Below, one piece after another: positions 1 through 35,376 of a DNA stretch of 40,692 nt (positions within the stretch are counted from its first letter, which is position 1; every line of letters starts with the position of its first letter). Below the pieces are notes generated by a model. It worked only from the letters and a program-made list of their open reading frames with translations. It did no database searches and had not been told where the DNA came from. The DNA is from a virus. A program made the translations under genes and the position numbers. The stretch is taken from IMG/VR virus record IMGVR_UViG_3300032116_014625, positions 1-40,692 of that record; one strand, 5' to 3'.

Positions 1-994
1 TTGATGAGCCGTTGATAGTTGCATATTCAGTTGCTGTAAAGAATTTAACATCTTTTGTGTTATTTGGCCATTGTGTAAAGTTACCTGCTACACGACTAAA
101 TACACCGTATGCATCTGTAATTGTTACGTTGTTAGATCCATTAACATCTGCTGCATAATAATCAAAACCAGACATCGTGCTATTACCTAATACCCATTGA
201 TTAATCAATTGTGCATCAGTTGCAGATATAATGTTACCTACATCCATAGTGTCGCCTTTGATTGCTAAACGAACATCCCAATAAGTGGTATCCAAGTTAA
301 CTGTGAATGTAAAGTTACCTGAGTTATCAGTGGTATACGTTGAATGTTGAGCCCAAGTAGAGCTACCAGCTGGACGTCTTTCTAATGCAAATGGCAACGT
401 TTTAGCACCCGTACCAGTTACGTTAGTAAATGTTCCTGCAAATGTAAATGTAGGTAAAATAAAGTTACCGCCATAGTTATGCAAGTTTAATGTAGTATCG
501 ATACCGGCACCGGTTGCTGCATATTGTTGGAAGGTTTGCGTTCCTGTCCAAGTTAATGGTGTAATTGATGCTAAGTTATTGAATACTGCTGGCGCTGCGT
601 GAGTAAAGGTAATTGCAAATCGTTCGCCGTTGGCTAATGTATATGATGGCGAAGCGCCTGTATATACTAAAGTAATTGTAATAAAACCATTAGTAGCATT
701 AGTTACAAATTGCATATCCAAGTTCGTAGTTGAACCAATCAATGCTACTGTTGCATTCGTAAATGCAATTTTGTCATAAAATACACGAAACTGGGTAGCA
801 GTGTATTTCGTTAATGTAGTGTTCTGCAAAGTAATATTTGCAGTAGTAAATCCTTGCGATGTTGGTGCCACTTGGTAATTTTGATGGATCAAACCATAAA
901 TACCATTACCTGGTGCTACAGGTGCTTGGGCTAATGTAACTGTTGTTGTAAATAAAACAGCAAGGAGTGTTAATAAACTTGTTAGTTTTTTCAT
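1..994 (-). CDS. Secreted protein with dockerin-like C-terminal pair (3' end cut by window)
   Basis: The frame is open from ATG at 994 to the window edge (331 codons, no stop), so the C-terminus is missing. AAAGGAGAG lies just upstream of the ATG. Residues 1-23 form a signal peptide: Lys-Lys, a hydrophobic run and a TLAQ-A cleavage site. Residues about 30-135 are a beta-rich segment with YDK, NGERFAITF and Thr/Asn-rich strands, resembling the cohesin/carbohydrate-binding beta-sandwich seen in Bacteroidota secreted proteins; this assignment is tentative. Residues about 245-305 carry two dockerin-like calcium repeats, GDTMDVGNIISATDAQL and ADVNGSNNVTITDAY, separated by a short insert. Dockerins bind cohesins in bacterial exoprotein assemblies, and one in a phage is unexpected. 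It may be a virion surface protein, a host-derived adhesin or a protein exported during infection. The reading frame is certain; the function is open. Confidence 0.8.
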   Translation of the reverse strand, partial: MKKLTSLLTLLAVLFTTTVTLAQAPVAPGNGIYGLIHQNYQVAPTSQGFTTANITLQNTTLTKYTATQFRVFYDKIAFTNATVALIGSTTNLDMQFVTNATNGFITITLVYTGASPSYTLANGERFAITFTHAAPAVFNNLASITPLTWTGTQTFQQYAATGAGIDTTLNLHNYGGNFILPTFTFAGTFTNVTGTGAKTLPFALERRPAGSSTWAQHSTYTTDNSGNFTFTVNLDTTYWDVRLAIKGDTMDVGNIISATDAQLINQWVLGNSTMSGFDYYAADVNGSNNVTITDAYGVFSRVAGNFTQWPNNTKDVKFFTATEYATINGSS

Positions 995-1020
995 TTATTC
1001 TCTCCTTTTTAATGTTCAAT

Positions 1021-1046: not shown

Positions 1047-1448
1047 TTACTTACTTTCTAACATACCTGTTATTCGTTTTTTGGCTTTTTCTCCTAATGG
1101 AATTGAATTGCCACCTTCATCTATTTGAACAAAGGTAATGTTTGTCTTCAATACAAGATCTTGCTTACCAGTATATACATTATGAGCACGTGCTTCCATA
1201 TACAATGTCATCGATGTATTGCCTACTCGTACTGGATAGCCGTATATCTTTAGTAGTTGCGATTCTTTTGCAGGTCGTTCGAAGTTGCATTGGTCAATTG
1301 ATACCGTTACCATACGAGGCGTATCACATAGTTGCATTGCATATCCTGCTGCTGAAGCATCGATCCAGGATAAGAGTTTACCTCCAAATAGATTGCCATG
1401 AAAGCCTAAGTCACTTTTCTTGATTGGGTGTGTATTTAATTGTTCCAT
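1047..1448 (-). CDS. Acyl-CoA thioesterase, hotdog fold (YciA/ACOT-like)
   Basis: 133 aa, single hotdog domain. The family signature is HGNLFGGKLLSWIDASAA at residues 17-34, with Asp30 in the position of the catalytic Asp of YciA-type acyl-CoA hydrolases. It is followed by the usual strands VTVSIDQCNFERPA and NTSMTLYMEARA. These enzymes hydrolyse acyl-CoA to free acid and CoA and normally work as dimer-based oligomers in the cytoplasm. The start overlaps the thymidylate synthase stop (TAATG), so it is translationally coupled to it. An acyl-CoA hydrolase is not a usual phage gene. It could alter host lipid or CoA pools, or the fold could have been recruited for another substrate. The family call is firm; substrate and role are unknown. 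Confidence 0.85.
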   Translation of the reverse strand: MEQLNTHPIKKSDLGFHGNLFGGKLLSWIDASAAGYAMQLCDTPRMVTVSIDQCNFERPAKESQLLKIYGYPVRVGNTSMTLYMEARAHNVYTGKQDLVLKTNITFVQIDEGGNSIPLGEKAKKRITGMLESK

Positions 1449-3114: not shown

Positions 3115-4743
<1,629 letters not shown>

Positions 4744-4758
4744 TTATAACTTTTATTT

Positions 4759-4787
4759 AATATAAATATTTAGATTGCAATTTCCAA
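4759..4787 (-). promoter_or_regulatory. Two-part promoter of groEL: TTGGAAA - 16 - TATATT
   Basis: The coding strand has TTGGAAA at 4787-4781 and TATATT at 4764-4759 with exactly 16 bases between, the same geometry as eight other sites in the window. It lies across the 3' end of the VWA gene. A TATTTATA octamer (4768-4761) overlaps the -10 box, so this gene may carry both kinds of upstream signal. A leader of about 25-30 bases containing AAAAGGA precedes the groEL ATG. Confidence 0.55.
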
Positions 4788-6845
4788 GAACTTTTTATTC
4801 AAAGTTTTTGATACTTCGGTCATGCTTTCTGGATTAATGAATTGAGCATCAGGTCCATACATTTTGCGGAAATTATCTACTGTCGACTCATACATGTAGC
4901 CGTCTTTGATAAAGTAACTAACTACATTGATTCCATTTTCGCGGAAGTTATTAACTACTCGACGGGTAAAGTCAACACCATTGTAATAATGTCCTGTACC
5001 TCTAACACTTGTAGGCTCACCATCTGAGTAATTCACAAAGATACATTCATCGCCCTTTGCATCAGTTTTGATATATTTCTCAATACTCTTAAAAGCAATG
5101 CCTTCTGGGGTACATCCATAGACATCCAAGTAACGAAACATTGTGCGGATCTTGTTCATCTTATCCTTTGCAGAATCATATGCATAAATCGTTACTGCGC
5201 GCTCGCCGGCATTATCAAAAGTAGATGTACCTCGCAATGAAATCTGCACACGGATACCTGTCGTCATGGATGCTGCCTGCGCTACAGCTACTGCTGAGGT
5301 AAGAGCATTTCTAAATTTAGGTCCGCCCATTGATCCAGATGCATCAATTGAAATATGAATGAAATAATTCTTGAAACGATCTGTTACAATGCGGTGGAAT
5401 ACATTTGCATTATTGTATCCTAATTGAGAAATCAATCGTCTATCAATCTTACCAGTCTCGAGACGAGTGCTTTTCAAGCTGCGGTCCGCATTACGAAGCT
5501 GAAGCTTTTTACCTAATTGCTTGCCTAATACAATGCCTCGCAGTACTGCTTGATCCGTTTCGTGTATGCCTCGCGTTCTGTATGAGTCTTTCGATATATC
5601 TTCTGCATAATCTTTCATACCGGTTAGGTAATCATCTGCATATGAAGCAAACAAATTGGGCATTGCTGCTGTGATACCAGGAGTAAACTTTTTGATAACA
5701 ATAGCTTCAACAATGTCAGTTTCACCTGCACCTGTTGCTACTTGCACTGTTTCTGTACCAGCTTCGCGGATAGCATTTACTGTGGATGCTTGTGCCTTTG
5801 TCAGCTTACCTGTCTTTTTAGTGGTACCATTCACAAATTTGCGTTGCTGCTCAATTGCCTTTTCCAATTGCTTTTGCTCTCTTTCTGAGAGTTGAGATTG
5901 ACTTGCAGTGGTAGGAGCTCCATCGTCACCTTCTTCTTCACCATCAGATGTTCCATTTCCTGTACCGCTTTCGTTGCCTCCATCGCCATCACCATCGCTA
6001 CTTTCATGACCACCATCGCCTGCTGCATCCATTTGTGCCTTTTGTTGTTGCTCAGCTTCTTGTACTGCTTTATTGATAATAACATAAGCATCAATAGCAA
6101 CATCTAAAGCATCCTGGGTTGATTTCAAACGATCGATATTTTTCAAATCAATAAGGTTCCATACCTCACGTAGCCTTTCTAATGCTGACAAGTTACGATT
6201 TGGATTAGTGAAGTTAATGATGTGAAATAAATAATCATCCAAAGTCTCTTGTGTCTTTTCATTCTTCTTAAGAGCTTTGTCAATTACTTTGTCATTGAAA
6301 TACTTATCATACATTGCCTCATAATACATACGGTATCCTGGAGCTGTCTTATAGATATGAAAGTCGATGCGACGGTCTTCAATCCAATTAAGAAGATCCT
6401 TTATGATAGCATAATTTTCATCAGTCATCGTCATATCCGGATCTACGCCGCGCATCATTACGCGCGAAGCCATTTGTGTTTGACTTAAGCTATGCGCTGA
6501 GTAACCATTAGGCTGTTTAAATACATCAAAATCTGTCAATGCAATATGCGAGCCTTCATGCAATGCTAATCCTACTGCAGCATCAAAATTTTCGTTATCT
6601 AATTTAGTACCAATAACAACTCGCTCACCATCTGTATAGCTATTGTCTGAACTTTGGAATACTACTGGAATTTGCTTGCCGGTAACAATATTAACAAAGT
6701 TACCAATTGCTCGTTGAGTTGCTGCTAATTTAGTATAATCAACACCAGACTCGCGTTTGAAATCTGTATCAAAGTCATCCATCCAAAAGCTAGATGCTTG
6801 ATTGCTTGTATACTTGCCATTAATGATTTTGTCGATAATACTCAT
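4770..6845 (-). CDS. VWA-domain protein with HExxH metallopeptidase-like domain (CobT/DUF2201-like partner of MoxR ATPase)
   Basis: 691 aa; the start at 6845 (MSIIDKII) follows the promoter and AAAAGAG. The N-terminal domain carries HEGSH at 96-100, an HExxH zinc-peptidase-like motif as in DUF2201-type proteins. Residues about 270-330 are an acidic, Gly/Ser/Asp/Glu-rich linker, reminiscent of CobT. The C-terminal VWA domain has an intact MIDAS: DASGS at 501-505, Thr579 in GCTPEG and Asp608 in YSDGEP. VWA proteins of this type pair with MoxR/CobS AAA+ ATPases to remodel target proteins or insert metals, and the MoxR gene is directly upstream. The two genes are separated by a terminator but have nearly identical promoters, so they are likely co-regulated. 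The target is unknown. Cobaltochelatase itself is unlikely because no cobalamin gene is nearby. Confidence 0.85.
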   Translation of the reverse strand: MSIIDKIINGKYTSNQASSFWMDDFDTDFKRESGVDYTKLAATQRAIGNFVNIVTGKQIPVVFQSSDNSYTDGERVVIGTKLDNENFDAAVGLALHEGSHIALTDFDVFKQPNGYSAHSLSQTQMASRVMMRGVDPDMTMTDENYAIIKDLLNWIEDRRIDFHIYKTAPGYRMYYEAMYDKYFNDKVIDKALKKNEKTQETLDDYLFHIINFTNPNRNLSALERLREVWNLIDLKNIDRLKSTQDALDVAIDAYVIINKAVQEAEQQQKAQMDAAGDGGHESSDGDGDGGNESGTGNGTSDGEEEGDDGAPTTASQSQLSEREQKQLEKAIEQQRKFVNGTTKKTGKLTKAQASTVNAIREAGTETVQVATGAGETDIVEAIVIKKFTPGITAAMPNLFASYADDYLTGMKDYAEDISKDSYRTRGIHETDQAVLRGIVLGKQLGKKLQLRNADRSLKSTRLETGKIDRRLISQLGYNNANVFHRIVTDRFKNYFIHISIDASGSMGGPKFRNALTSAVAVAQAASMTTGIRVQISLRGTSTFDNAGERAVTIYAYDSAKDKMNKIRTMFRYLDVYGCTPEGIAFKSIEKYIKTDAKGDECIFVNYSDGEPTSVRGTGHYYNGVDFTRRVVNNFRENGINVVSYFIKDGYMYESTVDNFRKMYGPDAQFINPESMTEVSKTLNKKFLEIAI

Positions 6846-6864
6846 AGCTCTTTTATTTTTATAT

Positions 6865-6893
6865 ATTATATGAAATTCATTCCAATAATCCAA
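6865..6893 (-). promoter_or_regulatory. Two-part promoter of the VWA gene: TTGGATT - 16 - TATAAT
   Basis: TTGGATT at 6893-6887 and TATAAT at 6870-6865 with 16 bases between; 19 bases then lead to the ATG at 6845. The block from GGTTGGATT to the start codon closely matches the promoter of the MoxR gene, including TTTCATATAATATA. It sits just past the MoxR terminator. Confidence 0.7.
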
Positions 6894-6902
6894 CCAGATA
6901 GT

Positions 6903-6936
6903 AAAAAAGGGAGGCAATTTCTCGCCTCCCCTTTTG
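6903..6936 (-). terminator. Rho-independent terminator after the MoxR gene
   Basis: Perfect 7-bp stem GGGAGGC (6909-6915) / GCCTCCC (6924-6930) with an 8-base loop, flanked by A and T runs. On the coding strand the stem is followed by TTTTTT. It ends the MoxR transcript 13-40 bases after its stop codon and separates it from the VWA promoter. The flanking runs make it possibly bidirectional. Confidence 0.85.
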
Positions 6937-6948
6937 AGCTATGAAAAA

Positions 6949-8097
6949 TTAAAATGGCGTTGATTCTGTATCCATTGAAACATCGCCCGTATTGAAAATG
7001 TCATTCATCTCAGTTGCCATATGCTTCTGGATGATCTGCTTAACAAACGTCCTTTCAGAATCTGAACCGCCTGATGCATCAAAGAATGGAAGAATTGCTA
7101 CTTCTGCTGCCTCAGTTAAAGAGAAGCCATCTGCTAACAATTCACATACGCGCACCGTCATACGAGTGGATACCATTGTGGTAAGTTTGCCTTCTTCTGA
7201 TCTCCATTCTTTTCGTGTTGCATCTGCAATGTCAGCAACTGCATGAATCATTTTTGCAGACACTGCATCTCCAAAGCGACGTGTCAATAAGTCTTCTTCT
7301 TGAGATAAAGAAAGAATATCTACTTCAATAATCTCAAAACGATCCATCAATGCACGGTCTAATACACGTGTCGATGTATATTCGGTACCAATGTTTGCTG
7401 TTGCAATAAAGGATACTCCTGGTGCTACGTTTACTAATGGAGCATTGATATCTTCATCGAGTCGAAGATAACGCTGACCTTCATCCAATACTGTCATCAA
7501 GATGTTCCATGCTTCAGGGTGCGCACGAGACAACTCATCCATAAGGATAACTGCATTTTCGGTCTGAATTGCTTTCACAAAGGCAGACTCATCAAAAGTG
7601 GTTTGACCATCTTTGAAGTGAGTGTTACCAATAAGAGTTGCTCTAGGATCTTGAGTTGCACCCAAGTTAAAATAAAAGAAAGGACGATTAGTAGCTACTG
7701 GCAAATCTTTTGCTGCCTGTGTCTTACCACAGCCTGCAGGACCAACCATCATGATGTTCTTGCCACGGACTGCGCTTCGCACCAAATACTTCCACTTAAC
7801 ATCTGACATCTCTAACGAAGATGGTTTAATCTTATGGGCATTATTAATAAGTTGCAACTCCGGTGTTAATTCTTTTTTGATTTCCATTGCGGGTTCCGGT
7901 GTTGGAATTTCGCCTTCGCGAGCTACTCGCTTTGCACGACCTGTGTCTTCGTCTAATACTAATAATTCATCATTTGCAAATGCATGACTAATCATGATGC
8001 TACGGAACTTATCCGTGATGTCAACATTAGTACCTAATTCGATGATTCTTTGTTTGCCATTTACTAAGGTTGGCACACCAATTTTCTTGTTTTTCAT
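6949..8097 (-). CDS. MoxR/CobS-type AAA+ ATPase
   Basis: 382 aa. The N-terminal ~95 residues are not part of the ATPase. The AAA+ core has Walker A GPAGCGKT at 119-126, Walker B ILMDE at 184-188 followed by LSRAHPEAWN, sensor 1 in SFIATANIG, and LDRALMDRFE supplying the arginine finger. The MoxR family acts as a hexameric chaperone-like motor with a VWA partner. Its partner here is the downstream HExxH/VWA protein. CobS-like ATPases are common in T4-like cyanophages, but their role there is unresolved. The C-terminus is acidic (TGDVSMDTESTPF). Expression is from its own promoter at 8115-8143 and ends at the hairpin at 6909-6930. Confidence 0.93.
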   Translation of the reverse strand: MKNKKIGVPTLVNGKQRIIELGTNVDITDKFRSIMISHAFANDELLVLDEDTGRAKRVAREGEIPTPEPAMEIKKELTPELQLINNAHKIKPSSLEMSDVKWKYLVRSAVRGKNIMMVGPAGCGKTQAAKDLPVATNRPFFYFNLGATQDPRATLIGNTHFKDGQTTFDESAFVKAIQTENAVILMDELSRAHPEAWNILMTVLDEGQRYLRLDEDINAPLVNVAPGVSFIATANIGTEYTSTRVLDRALMDRFEIIEVDILSLSQEEDLLTRRFGDAVSAKMIHAVADIADATRKEWRSEEGKLTTMVSTRMTVRVCELLADGFSLTEAAEVAILPFFDASGGSDSERTFVKQIIQKHMATEMNDIFNTGDVSMDTESTPF

Positions 8098-18202: not shown

Positions 18203-19363
18203 TTACTTGCAAATAATGAGTTCGTTTTTACGATCTGTAATAGAAACAATTGTTATTTTTAAATTACCTAATTGAAATAAACCAGGTTCTCCAGAATCTT
18301 GTATGATAGCTGATAAATTTTCTATAATATTATAATCTTGTTGAGTAAATCTATTGCCGTTGATTTCGACTATGATATCATCATAATCATATCGATCTAA
18401 ATCAGTTAGTGCATGGCAACGTTCTCTTAAATTAAATTTAGTATTAGGTTGTTCTAATGTAATATACTTCATCCATTCCGCATCAGAATATATTCTATCA
18501 CACCACGGTTCCAATAAACGCAATAAATCTTGAGAACAATTTTCTACTCGAAATGCAACATTGTATTTCGGTAAAATAACAGGATGTTGCCATTCATTAT
18601 TTTTAATCCAACTACCCCATTTTCTTAAATAGTTTCTGCCGGCTTTTTCCGAAACTTGTTTAAAGTAATCATCATCTCGTCCGACTTGTTCAGTCCATCG
18701 ATGTCCTCTACATGTTAGATGATATACAAATGCATCTCGGCTTTGAATTAATTCATAGCCCGCTAATATCCAGCGTTGAAAAATATCTGAATCTTCATAT
18801 GGGAAAGGAGCAAACATCGGATCGTGGCCGCCTATTGCTTGAAAATCTTTTTTATAAAGAATCCATGGAGCAAACATTCCATATGTAACTTTATCTAATT
18901 CTTCTTCTTGTTTATGCAAAACAAATTCTTCAAATGCATCAATATTCAATGTATCGAAGTCTTGTCCAAAATCCATAATGATTTTTTCTTTACCTTCTGG
19001 GTGTAAAGGTGGTTCTATACGGGTCGCACAGACAACTTTCCCTGGCTGTAAGTGCTTTAACATATTTTCAATATACAAAGGACCAATAATCATATCAGCG
19101 TGTAAGATACCCACTATATCATTTGTAGCAAGTTCAATGCCTTTGTCATATAGTATCGTATGCCCTACTCGTTCTTCACTCCTTAGTATTCTGGTTTTAT
19201 TATTTGCCTCAATCTCTACTTGTTGCATCCACTCCCATGATCCATCCGTTGAACCATCATCCAATAAAATAACTTCTGCTTCCGGAGCATGTTTTTTAAT
19301 ACTTGCGTATACATTCTTAAGATGTCGCAGATTGTTGTAACTAGGTATAATTAATGATATCAT
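18203..19363 (-). CDS. Family 2 glycosyltransferase with extra C-terminal domain
   Basis: 386 aa. GT-A fold: SLIIPSYNN at the N-terminus, LLDDGSTDGS (33-42) for nucleotide-sugar binding, LHADM (88-91) in the position of the DxD metal site, and GGHDPMFAPFPYEDSDIFQR acceptor/catalytic region, then WTEQVGRDDDYF. It shares this layout with the gene at 31155-32009 and looks paralogous to it. Residues about 290-386 are a separate domain without known match. It is the last gene of the sugar island and overlaps the next upstream gene by ATGA. Donor and acceptor unknown. Confidence 0.85.
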   Translation of the reverse strand: MISLIIPSYNNLRHLKNVYASIKKHAPEAEVILLDDGSTDGSWEWMQQVEIEANNKTRILRSEERVGHTILYDKGIELATNDIVGILHADMIIGPLYIENMLKHLQPGKVVCATRIEPPLHPEGKEKIIMDFGQDFDTLNIDAFEEFVLHKQEEELDKVTYGMFAPWILYKKDFQAIGGHDPMFAPFPYEDSDIFQRWILAGYELIQSRDAFVYHLTCRGHRWTEQVGRDDDYFKQVSEKAGRNYLRKWGSWIKNNEWQHPVILPKYNVAFRVENCSQDLLRLLEPWCDRIYSDAEWMKYITLEQPNTKFNLRERCHALTDLDRYDYDDIIVEINGNRFTQQDYNIIENLSAIIQDSGEPGLFQLGNLKITIVSITDRKNELIICK

Positions 19364-32626: not shown

Positions 32627-33886
32627 TTATACCTTTTGTAATTTAGGTAGTTCTACTTTTTTAAGTTGAGGTAATTTTAATTCAACTGATTTTGGAATTT
32701 GTTCCATTAATGTATCAATTTCATTGAAAACATTTCCATATATTTTAGTTACCGCAATCTTATTGAAATTACTTTTTGCAAAAAAACGTTGACGTTTTGC
32801 TAATTCAAACCATTTTTTGTAATTTTTTTGGACATCTCGTAAACATTCTACCGCATACTTATAATCTGGAGTAAACCACTTTGCGTCTCCAATTAACCAA
32901 TCGTTTTGAGCTGACGGATGAATATTAGTTAAGCCTCCTTTAACTTCACAAATAAAATCTTGTTTAAGAAAATCAACTGGGCCGCTATGATATGGTGCAA
33001 TAATTGGTTTAGATGTTGTTGTAAATTCTAATAATGGTCGGCCGAATCCTTCTGATTTTGTTAAAGAATACATTGCTTTAACTTTAGGGTGCATATACAA
33101 TGAATTCATTTGTTTGTCAGTTAATTCGCCGTGCAACAAATATATTTTAGGTAATCGATCTGTTTTTTTGAAAAGATTTTTAACTTGTGCTATTTTCTTT
33201 TCAATCTCCATTCGATCTGTAATTGAATATGTAGCTCCGCTTGTTTTTAATATTAATGCGGGTTGATTTTTTTGATTTTTAAATGCATCAAAAAATGAAT
33301 AAATAGTACCGCTAATATTTTTTCGGTCTTCACCTAATGTGCCTTGCAACCAATGACCTACTGTCAAAAATGCAAACGTTTCAGAAATTGAATCTAGTTC
33401 AGGTAATGAAATTTCATATTGTCCCGTATATACTGTTTCATCAAAATATTCCGGAATTACATAAATTGGTGTAGTAATATGTTTTTGATGTTTCGCTGCC
33501 GTGTTTTGAAAGGTCTTTTTTGTAAACTCAGTAGGAACAATTATTAATTGCATTGAGTTTAAATTGTCAATCCATGATTCGGGACAAATATCACCTTCGG
33601 TACCAGCTGTAAATCCAATATTAAATTTACCAACCGGTTGAAATTCGTTCGGAACTGTTACTTGAATCCAAATATCTGGTTGCTCTTGTAATGGTAAGGG
33701 AACAATTCTAGATTTTAAATCATTAGATATTGGATATGTAAATGGAGTATATCCCCATGGCAATGAAACTAATTTTACGTCCCATTCTGAACCTCGTTGT
33801 TCTATTAATTGAGAAATAATTTCTCGTGCGTGATGTCCGTAACCTGATTGTGTCGCTACTGGCGATGCTATAACTAATTTTCTCAT
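32627..33886 (-). CDS. GT-B glycosyltransferase (family 4-like)
   Basis: 419 aa. The N-terminal Rossmann half has ASPVATQSGYGHHAREI and FTAGTEGDICPESWID, with IVPTEFTKKTF at the domain junction. The C-terminal donor half has FLTVGHW, YLLHGELTDKQMNSLY and MYSLTKSEGFGRPLLEF with the E-x7-E type motif of GT4. The last 20 residues carry KLPQLKKVELPKLQKV, repeating the ELPKLQK found at the start of the protein encoded just upstream. Its start overlaps that gene's stop (TAATG), so the two may work as a pair. Confidence 0.85.
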   Translation of the reverse strand: MRKLVIASPVATQSGYGHHAREIISQLIEQRGSEWDVKLVSLPWGYTPFTYPISNDLKSRIVPLPLQEQPDIWIQVTVPNEFQPVGKFNIGFTAGTEGDICPESWIDNLNSMQLIIVPTEFTKKTFQNTAAKHQKHITTPIYVIPEYFDETVYTGQYEISLPELDSISETFAFLTVGHWLQGTLGEDRKNISGTIYSFFDAFKNQKNQPALILKTSGATYSITDRMEIEKKIAQVKNLFKKTDRLPKIYLLHGELTDKQMNSLYMHPKVKAMYSLTKSEGFGRPLLEFTTTSKPIIAPYHSGPVDFLKQDFICEVKGGLTNIHPSAQNDWLIGDAKWFTPDYKYAVECLRDVQKNYKKWFELAKRQRFFAKSNFNKIAVTKIYGNVFNEIDTLMEQIPKSVELKLPQLKKVELPKLQKV

Positions 33887-35376
33887 TATTTTACAATTCC
33901 TATATTTTCGTATTTTGTATCTTCAATTGAGTTAAATGTATATGTTGGCCTAGATTCTTTATTAACGTCAAATAAATAATCAATCATATGAATCATTTTG
34001 TTACCCATTTGCTCAGCAGTCAAACCATTTGCTAATGCCCATGTTCTTCCAACTAATCCCATTTCATCGCGAAGTGTTTCTGGTATATTATACCAATACA
34101 TAATTGCATCAGCGACATCTTCAAATTTTACTCGGTCATCAAATATATACGGTGTTTGCGGTGAGCCTTGTAAACTTCTATTGCTAGGAAATACTGGTTT
34201 TACCCAAACGCCATGTAATTTATACTTACCGGTATGATTAGTTGCAAATTCACCATTAAAACGAATCCATTCTCCATTTTCATCTTCAAAACCGCATTGG
34301 TCTTGTAATCCGCCTGTTACGTTATTAATAATAGGTGTACCAGAAAGAATTGATTCCGTAGAACTTAAACCCCAACCTTCGTTACTGCCAATATTGATTA
34401 CAACATCTGATATATTATACAATGCATTAAGTTCTTCGCTTGTTAATTTTTGATCTGAAAAAATTATTTTACAATCAGGTGCTACTACATCTCTTACTGC
34501 AATCAAATCAGTACCATTATCATCAACTGGTTGAGTATGCATTACTAATCCAACTTTATTCTTTTGATCTTCTGGTAATGAATCAACAAAAGTTTTAAAT
34601 GCTAAAATAACGTCGCCTGGTTGTTTTCTTCGAATATTTCTATTATTCCAAAATACCATGAATTCAATTCCGTTTTCTTTTTTAAATTGATCATGCATTT
34701 TTTTATACAATTCATCATCTTTTGGAATCGGCTTGAATTTAGTATGATTCAATCCGTGAGGTACATATCCCGTAATAATTTCATTCCATTTTAGATCCAG
34801 CGGAGCCGAATCATGTTCATCGTAATCTACAACACCAAATCCATTCTGTTTAAGAACTTCTCTATGGATATTATCAGATTGCTTACTAATTCCCATAATT
34901 AAGTCACAACTACCATAAAACGGCGCGTTCCACATTGGATAAGGTAAATCATCCCAAATAGAATAATAAACTAATGGAATATTGTAAGTAGTTTTTAACT
35001 CATGTTCTAATGCATACAACCAAGTCCAATAACGTGGATCAGTAAAGTGAAAAATTGCATCTGGTTGTTCTTGATTGATAAGTGCAAATAAAACATTGCG
35101 ATCACCATAACCTGACCATGGTATTAATTTAACTGATGCATCTTCGACACCTGTTTCATGTGCAACATGTTGAGACAAATCTACACCTTTTCCATGTTCA
35201 GGGTGTTGTAATGCTGCACCTAATTGTATCCAATCATAATGTTGTACGGTATTATAAATAATTTCTTTGCTAACAGTCCCAATACCAGATGGCAATCTAA
35301 AATCATCTGCCAATAAAAGAATTTTTTTCTTTTTAAGTTTGTTAGGGTCAATTTTTTGTAACTTTGGTAATTCCAT
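33886..35376 (-). CDS. GT-B glycosyltransferase (family 4-like)
   Basis: 496 aa. It starts MELPKLQKIDPNKLKKKK, a basic tail ahead of the Rossmann strand ILLLADDFRLPSGIGTVSKE. MGISKQSDNIHREVL is the domain junction. The donor half has VFWNNRNIRRKQPGDVILAF, KIIFSDQKLTSEELNALY and VINIGSNEGWGLSSTESILSG with the GT4 catalytic Glu pair. It is the first gene of the sugar island after a TATTTATA octamer and AAAAGGA. The N-terminal ELPKLQK also ends the next protein, suggesting a docking peptide or an old shared boundary. Confidence 0.88.
   Translation of the reverse strand: MELPKLQKIDPNKLKKKKILLLADDFRLPSGIGTVSKEIIYNTVQHYDWIQLGAALQHPEHGKGVDLSQHVAHETGVEDASVKLIPWSGYGDRNVLFALINQEQPDAIFHFTDPRYWTWLYALEHELKTTYNIPLVYYSIWDDLPYPMWNAPFYGSCDLIMGISKQSDNIHREVLKQNGFGVVDYDEHDSAPLDLKWNEIITGYVPHGLNHTKFKPIPKDDELYKKMHDQFKKENGIEFMVFWNNRNIRRKQPGDVILAFKTFVDSLPEDQKNKVGLVMHTQPVDDNGTDLIAVRDVVAPDCKIIFSDQKLTSEELNALYNISDVVINIGSNEGWGLSSTESILSGTPIINNVTGGLQDQCGFEDENGEWIRFNGEFATNHTGKYKLHGVWVKPVFPSNRSLQGSPQTPYIFDDRVKFEDVADAIMYWYNIPETLRDEMGLVGRTWALANGLTAEQMGNKMIHMIDYLFDVNKESRPTYTFNSIEDTKYENIGIVK

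Follow-up and report, generated by a model that had tools for sequence, protein, structure and literature searches.

Positions 2-994 on the minus strand carry the first half of a phage scaffold gene with a full size of about 637 codons. The window, that is, the whole stretch of DNA analyzed, is an entire virus record of 40,692 bases; the gene forms an open frame of 331 codons running off the contig end, and the rest of it lies beyond. In complete relatives the domain order is well supported: signal peptide, cohesin-like domain, X-like domain, dockerin, linker, second cohesin, and type IX secretion system (T9SS) sorting domain. Computation establishes this architecture, the conserved cassette behind the gene, a lineage in which the gene is split, and its residence in viruses. 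The protein is probably a phage scaffoldin, exported by the T9SS and holding dockerin-bearing partners at the surface of the infected Bacteroidota cell as a glycan-binding coat. The gene has the following features in the window.

2-994, minus strand: 5' half of the scaffold gene, 331 of about 637 codons (complete relative at L003:8001-9914, 92% identical over 331 residues)
1002-1006, minus strand: ribosome-binding site AGGAG, 7 nt before the ATG
926-994, minus strand: signal peptide, residues 1-23 (from the sequence; helix 2-16 in the L003 model)
455-913, minus strand: N-terminal cohesin-like domain, about residues 28-180 (Pfam cohesin below the cut-off in 12 of 21 records; model residues 28-304 aligned with CipA Coh-X-Doc)
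257-454, minus strand: X-like beta domain, about residues 181-246 (predicted model; homologous stretch in the lectin protein)
59-256, minus strand: dockerin-like domain, residues 247-312 (Pfam Dockerin_1 and profile match to a solved dockerin)
215-253, minus strand: first repeat loop, residues 248-260, degenerate (alignment of 38 relatives)
113-148, minus strand: second repeat loop, residues 283-294, canonical calcium-loop pattern (same alignment)

The start of the gene and its surroundings agree with most of the preliminary description. That description had the phage gene encoding a secreted protein with a dockerin, which is borne out by the dockerin matches and by a clear signal peptide (MKKLTSLLTLLAVLFTTTVTLAQ); action at the surface of the infected cell is a prediction. 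The proposed ribosome site is confirmed, and AGGAG is common to the four closest relatives among 15 upstream regions compared. The proposed T4-type late octamer is not supported: TATAAATA has 7 copies in the window against 10.2 expected by chance, all on the plus strand, and the nearest (4761-4768) is thus on the strand opposite to the scaffold gene. The record is phage-like, with a T4-type clamp loader, an exonuclease, and GroEL matching PHROG families. The window protein itself matches no PHROG family at E<=1; no known tail protein family was hit, and identification of the gene as a known structural or virion protein was rejected. Directly upstream lies a gene for a 4HBT-type thioesterase (1047-1448, minus strand), and a thymidylate synthase gene is found two genes upstream. 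Further along the minus strand are a full-length GroEL chaperonin gene (3115-4725; PHROG 5725, E 3.7e-175) and a neighboring pair at 4770-8097, consisting of a MoxR-type AAA ATPase (6949-8097) and a protein with a CobT-like VWA match (4770-6917).

Complete relatives carry both a cohesin and a sorting signal in the same protein. When IMG/VR was scanned with the window protein, 81 relatives came up; the best 80 (53-92% identity) were taken, and complete genes among them have about 634-658 codons. The preliminary description proposed searching for a cohesin partner and a C-terminal sorting domain, and both are present in these proteins, the sorting domain being outside the window. In the closest relative, L003 (92%), the T9SS type A sorting domain exceeds the curated Pfam and NCBIfam cut-offs (PF18962, TIGR04183), and a 54% identical UniProt entry, A0A6J5M064, bears the automatic label "Secretion system C-terminal sorting domain." Scans of 38 non-redundant relatives, protein by protein, find the sorting domain in 38, Pfam cohesin in 35, and Pfam dockerin in 11 (E<=0.01). 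Within the phage records searched for the sorting domain, the scaffold gene is the only place where it occurs (22 of 22). The cohesin of the C-terminal half is over the Pfam cut-off in 19 of 21 phage records, while a second, weaker match in the N-terminal half is found in 12 of 21 and is never over the cut-off; the same search matched in 2 of 14 control genomes, in one of them over the cut-off. At least one cohesin domain, as a scaffoldin needs, is therefore present in the relatives, and the window holds only the weaker N-terminal one.

The predicted structure agrees with the Pfam and NCBIfam matches, which supports the architecture. In the L003 model (mean pLDDT 68.6), residues 405-534 superimpose on cohesin 6kgf_C (Z 14.6, rmsd 2.6, 128 aligned). 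For residues 28-304 the match is to the Coh-X-Doc end of the Clostridium thermocellum scaffoldin CipA, in 4fl4_I (Z 11.7, rmsd 10.3, 230 aligned) and 3kcp_A (Z 11.2, rmsd 9.9, 228 aligned). The large rmsd to CipA is probably due to domain placing in a model of middling confidence.

The dockerin region has one canonical calcium loop. Pfam Dockerin_1 (PF00404) matches residues 256-296 of the window protein with E=5.2e-4 and 20.6 bits, short of the curated 22.9-bit cut-off, and a profile of 38 relatives matches the solved dockerin 4uyp_B (E=8.7e-4). The repeats thus resemble dockerins and not a non-calcium fold. Two calcium repeats had been described, and the second stands: D1, N3, and D12 of its loop are kept in 38 of 38 relatives, and position 5 is small polar or acidic. 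The first loop departs from the canonical calcium-loop form, since all 38 relatives have Met at its position 3 and an additional residue. With a score below the cut-off and one canonical loop instead of two, the window protein falls short of a type I dockerin. Dockerin_1 is over the cut-off in 4 of 21 related phage records, and at E<=1 the model also matches in 9 of 14 control genomes. In gp014 of the cultured Flavobacterium phage Immuto (NC_055915), loop 2 has lost the Asp at position 1. Together with the degenerate first loop, this suggests that calcium binding is perhaps weak or lost there. We infer that the dockerin is calcium dependent.

The scaffold gene is followed by a conserved set of genes. 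Among loci long enough to show each gene, a small membrane protein comes after the scaffold in 58 of 64, a CsgG-like protein in 52 of 52, then a predicted surface protein, whose middle part is of low complexity, in 48 of 48 and, downstream of it, a dockerin-bearing lectin protein in 46 of 47. The single miss (L075) has at that place a 994-residue gene with lectin domains and also a BLAST match to the scaffold. Two further genes follow, f4 in 43 of 43 loci and f5 in 41 of 43. By profile comparison f4 (L004:14108-14551) is a shorter, second CsgG-like protein (91.5%, E 8.5e-7), and f5 (L004:14526-14975), which is small and secreted, has a conserved HES-x-HLY motif. In 14 of 45 loci the cassette also contains a gene for a secreted DNA/RNA non-specific endonuclease (PF01223; L004:13527-14111 and similar), an insertion that is therefore not part of its core. 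Searches of solved structures with profiles of f4 and the predicted surface protein gave nothing meaningful. In the small membrane protein, a single N-terminal membrane segment precedes a long hydrophilic tail, and the C-terminal Trp is invariant (26 of 26 aligned).

The linkage is also seen from the other direction. A scan with the CsgG-like protein found 444 relatives, from which the best 80 loci were taken, giving 76 new locus ids, and the scaffold is upstream of the CsgG-like gene in all 66 of these that have enough sequence. In the 46 loci that do not overlap the first set, it is upstream in 39 of 39 testable cases. The lectin-dockerin gene is present in at least 55 of 60 loci among the same 80; this is a lower bound because at least one miss, L111, sits on a contig where the gene was found as L034.

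The lectin protein and the scaffold share a module. The last 180 residues of the lectin protein are homologous to the X-dockerin-tail part of the scaffold (hhalign 99.7%, E 1.1e-25), and the domains in front of this module vary: C-type lectin in 23 of 32 proteins, laminin-G in 9, Ig_7 in 4, and GEVED in 3.

The CsgG-like protein is named for its predicted fold. A low-confidence model built from 27 relatives (pLDDT 54) has CsgG in all of its top 15 Foldseek rows (best E 1.4e-6). VIA also ranks CsgG first, with Z 7.8, rmsd 7.5, and 168 aligned, although below Z 8 the tool warns of chance arrangements. A Pfam search with the protein gave no CsgG match, and the family profile found no CsgG among solved structures. 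For these reasons the name is kept at "CsgG-like." A strict lipobox is found in 6 of the 27 proteins and several more have FSC at the same place, while the others have a plain signal peptide.

The scaffold family appears to be viral. The two most conserved patterns of the family were used to scan 84,980 bacterial and archaeal species genomes, and distant bacterial relatives are possible beyond the reach of these two patterns. The scan gave one match, a 16.5-kb contig in a Sphingomonadaceae MAG. This contig is probably a mis-binned phage, since it carries the same cassette as the phage loci and the rest of the 3.4-Mb assembly is without a T9SS tag. The only matches among 50,697 named phage records are the four records of the Immuto isolates. 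T4-type major capsid (Gp23) genes are present in 14 of 23 related records, and several of the other nine are fragments. The window gene is under purifying selection, with dN/dS of 0.10-0.17 against four relatives. Recent gene capture from the host, which the preliminary description had offered, is rejected because many phages share the family, its gene neighbors are strict, selection is purifying, and the genome scan gave that one match.

In Immuto and its relatives the scaffold is encoded by two genes. Immuto gp014 has a signal peptide followed by cohesin-like, X-like, and dockerin-like domains, while gp015 has its own signal peptide, a cohesin, and a T9SS tag, the latter two over the cut-off. 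Adjoining them is gp013, a lectin and X-dockerin protein. A scan with gp015 found 27 loci, 20 with the Immuto-type split and 7 with divergent fused genes. In 20 of 20 Immuto-type loci, counting Immuto's own record, the first stop is directly before a second start that opens a new signal peptide; these loci probably descend from one event. The split falls exactly between dockerin and cohesin, as expected if the halves relink non-covalently. Such relinking would explain the split, though it is an interpretation and not proof, given the probable single event and the missing first Asp in loop 2 of Immuto's own dockerin.

These features suggest how a phage scaffoldin would act. The scaffold would leave the cytoplasm by Sec export and cross the outer membrane by the type IX secretion system of the host, and the C-terminal tag would leave it on the surface of the infected Bacteroidota cell or release it from there. 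The cohesin domains may hold dockerin-bearing partners, namely more scaffold copies and the lectin-X-dockerin protein of the cassette. For partners lacking a T9SS tag, passage through the outer membrane would probably be aided by the CsgG-like and predicted surface proteins. The outcome would be a glycan-binding coat made during infection, possibly serving adhesion, sibling capture, or superinfection exclusion.

The arrangement recalls cellulosomal scaffoldins such as CipA and the adaptor and anchoring scaffoldins, with which it shares the order cohesin-X-dockerin and then another cohesin. In the split lineage the likeness extends to three tiers: an anchoring cohesin, a cohesin-X-dockerin adaptor, and a terminal X-dockerin protein. 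Cellulosomal scaffoldins are anchored by an S-layer or sortase signal, whereas the anchor of the phage scaffold is a T9SS tag. The phage system also differs in being encoded by a virus, in having lectins instead of enzymes as terminal partners, and in the degeneration of one calcium loop. A more elaborate form of the scaffoldin reading is tentative and somewhat doubtful: a cellulosome-like surface apparatus of three tiers, built on the infected cell by a widespread lineage of Bacteroidota phages, with a T9SS-anchored cohesin, a chainable cohesin-X-dockerin adaptor, variable lectin-dockerin tips, and a dedicated CsgG-like exporter, acting as an adhesion organelle that keeps neighboring host cells or glycan particles close for released virions. 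If true, it would be a new kind of adhesion organelle, one built by a virus.

Other roles for the cassette are less likely. It is unlikely to be a module for lysis, in which the CsgG-like, small membrane, and surface proteins open the outer membrane late in infection with the scaffold as an accessory. Flanks of 68 complete loci do contain GH19 endolysin-like genes (33 loci) and two families of holin-like genes (32 and 20 loci), and the small membrane protein has a shape that we take to resemble that of inner-membrane spanins. However, a cohesin-dockerin-T9SS scaffold with variable lectins has no obvious place in lysis, and in the window and its closest relatives the scaffold gene is instead beside the thioesterase and thymidylate synthase genes. 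Similarly improbable is an auxiliary gene set of host origin, which would let the infected cell bind or digest polymers and would play no direct part in the spread of the virus or in exclusion. In its favor, bacteria typically handle glycans with cohesins, dockerins, lectins, and T9SS tags. Also, Cryophage carries a T9SS-tagged endoglucanase and a GH39 enzyme (PMC7468147). Against this, the named domains of the lectin-dockerin proteins are for binding (lectin, laminin-G, GEVED, Ig), the tally includes no catalytic family, and the pattern scan of 84,980 genomes gave no bacterial copy beyond the probably mis-binned contig.

Decoration of virions, raised in the preliminary description and meaning that lectin-dockerin complexes on cohesin-bearing proteins coat released particles, is very unlikely: phage heads and fibers often bear lectin and Ig-like domains, but the signal peptides and T9SS tag would export the proteins before particle assembly and thus point to export, and the window protein matches no PHROG structural family.

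Phage-encoded T9SS cargo and phage CsgG have each been published, and no report of their combination was found among openly licensed papers. Cryophage encodes proteins with T9SS type A sorting domains, and the cargo, an endoglucanase, a GH39 enzyme, and a PA14 protein, varies between variants; in contrast to the present cassette, cohesin, dockerin, and CsgG are absent from the available text (PMC7468147). Pelagimyophages and phage Melnitz, which infect SAR11 and OM43, are reported to have CsgG/CsgF, with a CsgG-type outer-membrane channel but no recognized curli subunits, and "sibling capture" was proposed for it (PMC7029224, PMC9004378). The CsgG-like protein described here is distant in sequence from theirs and is tied to a T9SS-tagged scaffold and lectins. 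Immuto gp013-gp019 is a cultured member of the same cassette with the scaffold split. Its record already labels one gene "cohesin domain-containing" and one "lectin C-type," and the annotation carries no mention of a sorting domain, dockerins, or a CsgG-like protein. Among the titles and abstract openings of openly licensed papers that searches listed, none describes this cassette or a cohesin-dockerin scaffold from a phage.

The results suggest that phages of aquatic Bacteroidota use the type IX secretion of the host to cover the infected cell with a lectin-tipped coat that assembles itself; if true, cellulosome-type assembly, the T9SS, and phage biology would be linked. The question of why phages carry CsgG would become testable in a cultured phage, using Immuto on Flavobacterium sp. 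LMO8. The predicted cohesin-dockerin pairs are new and possibly orthogonal. The window also has three genes that match phage glycosyltransferase or O-antigen conversion families (18203-19363 and 32627-35376, minus strand), and these possibly change the host surface too.
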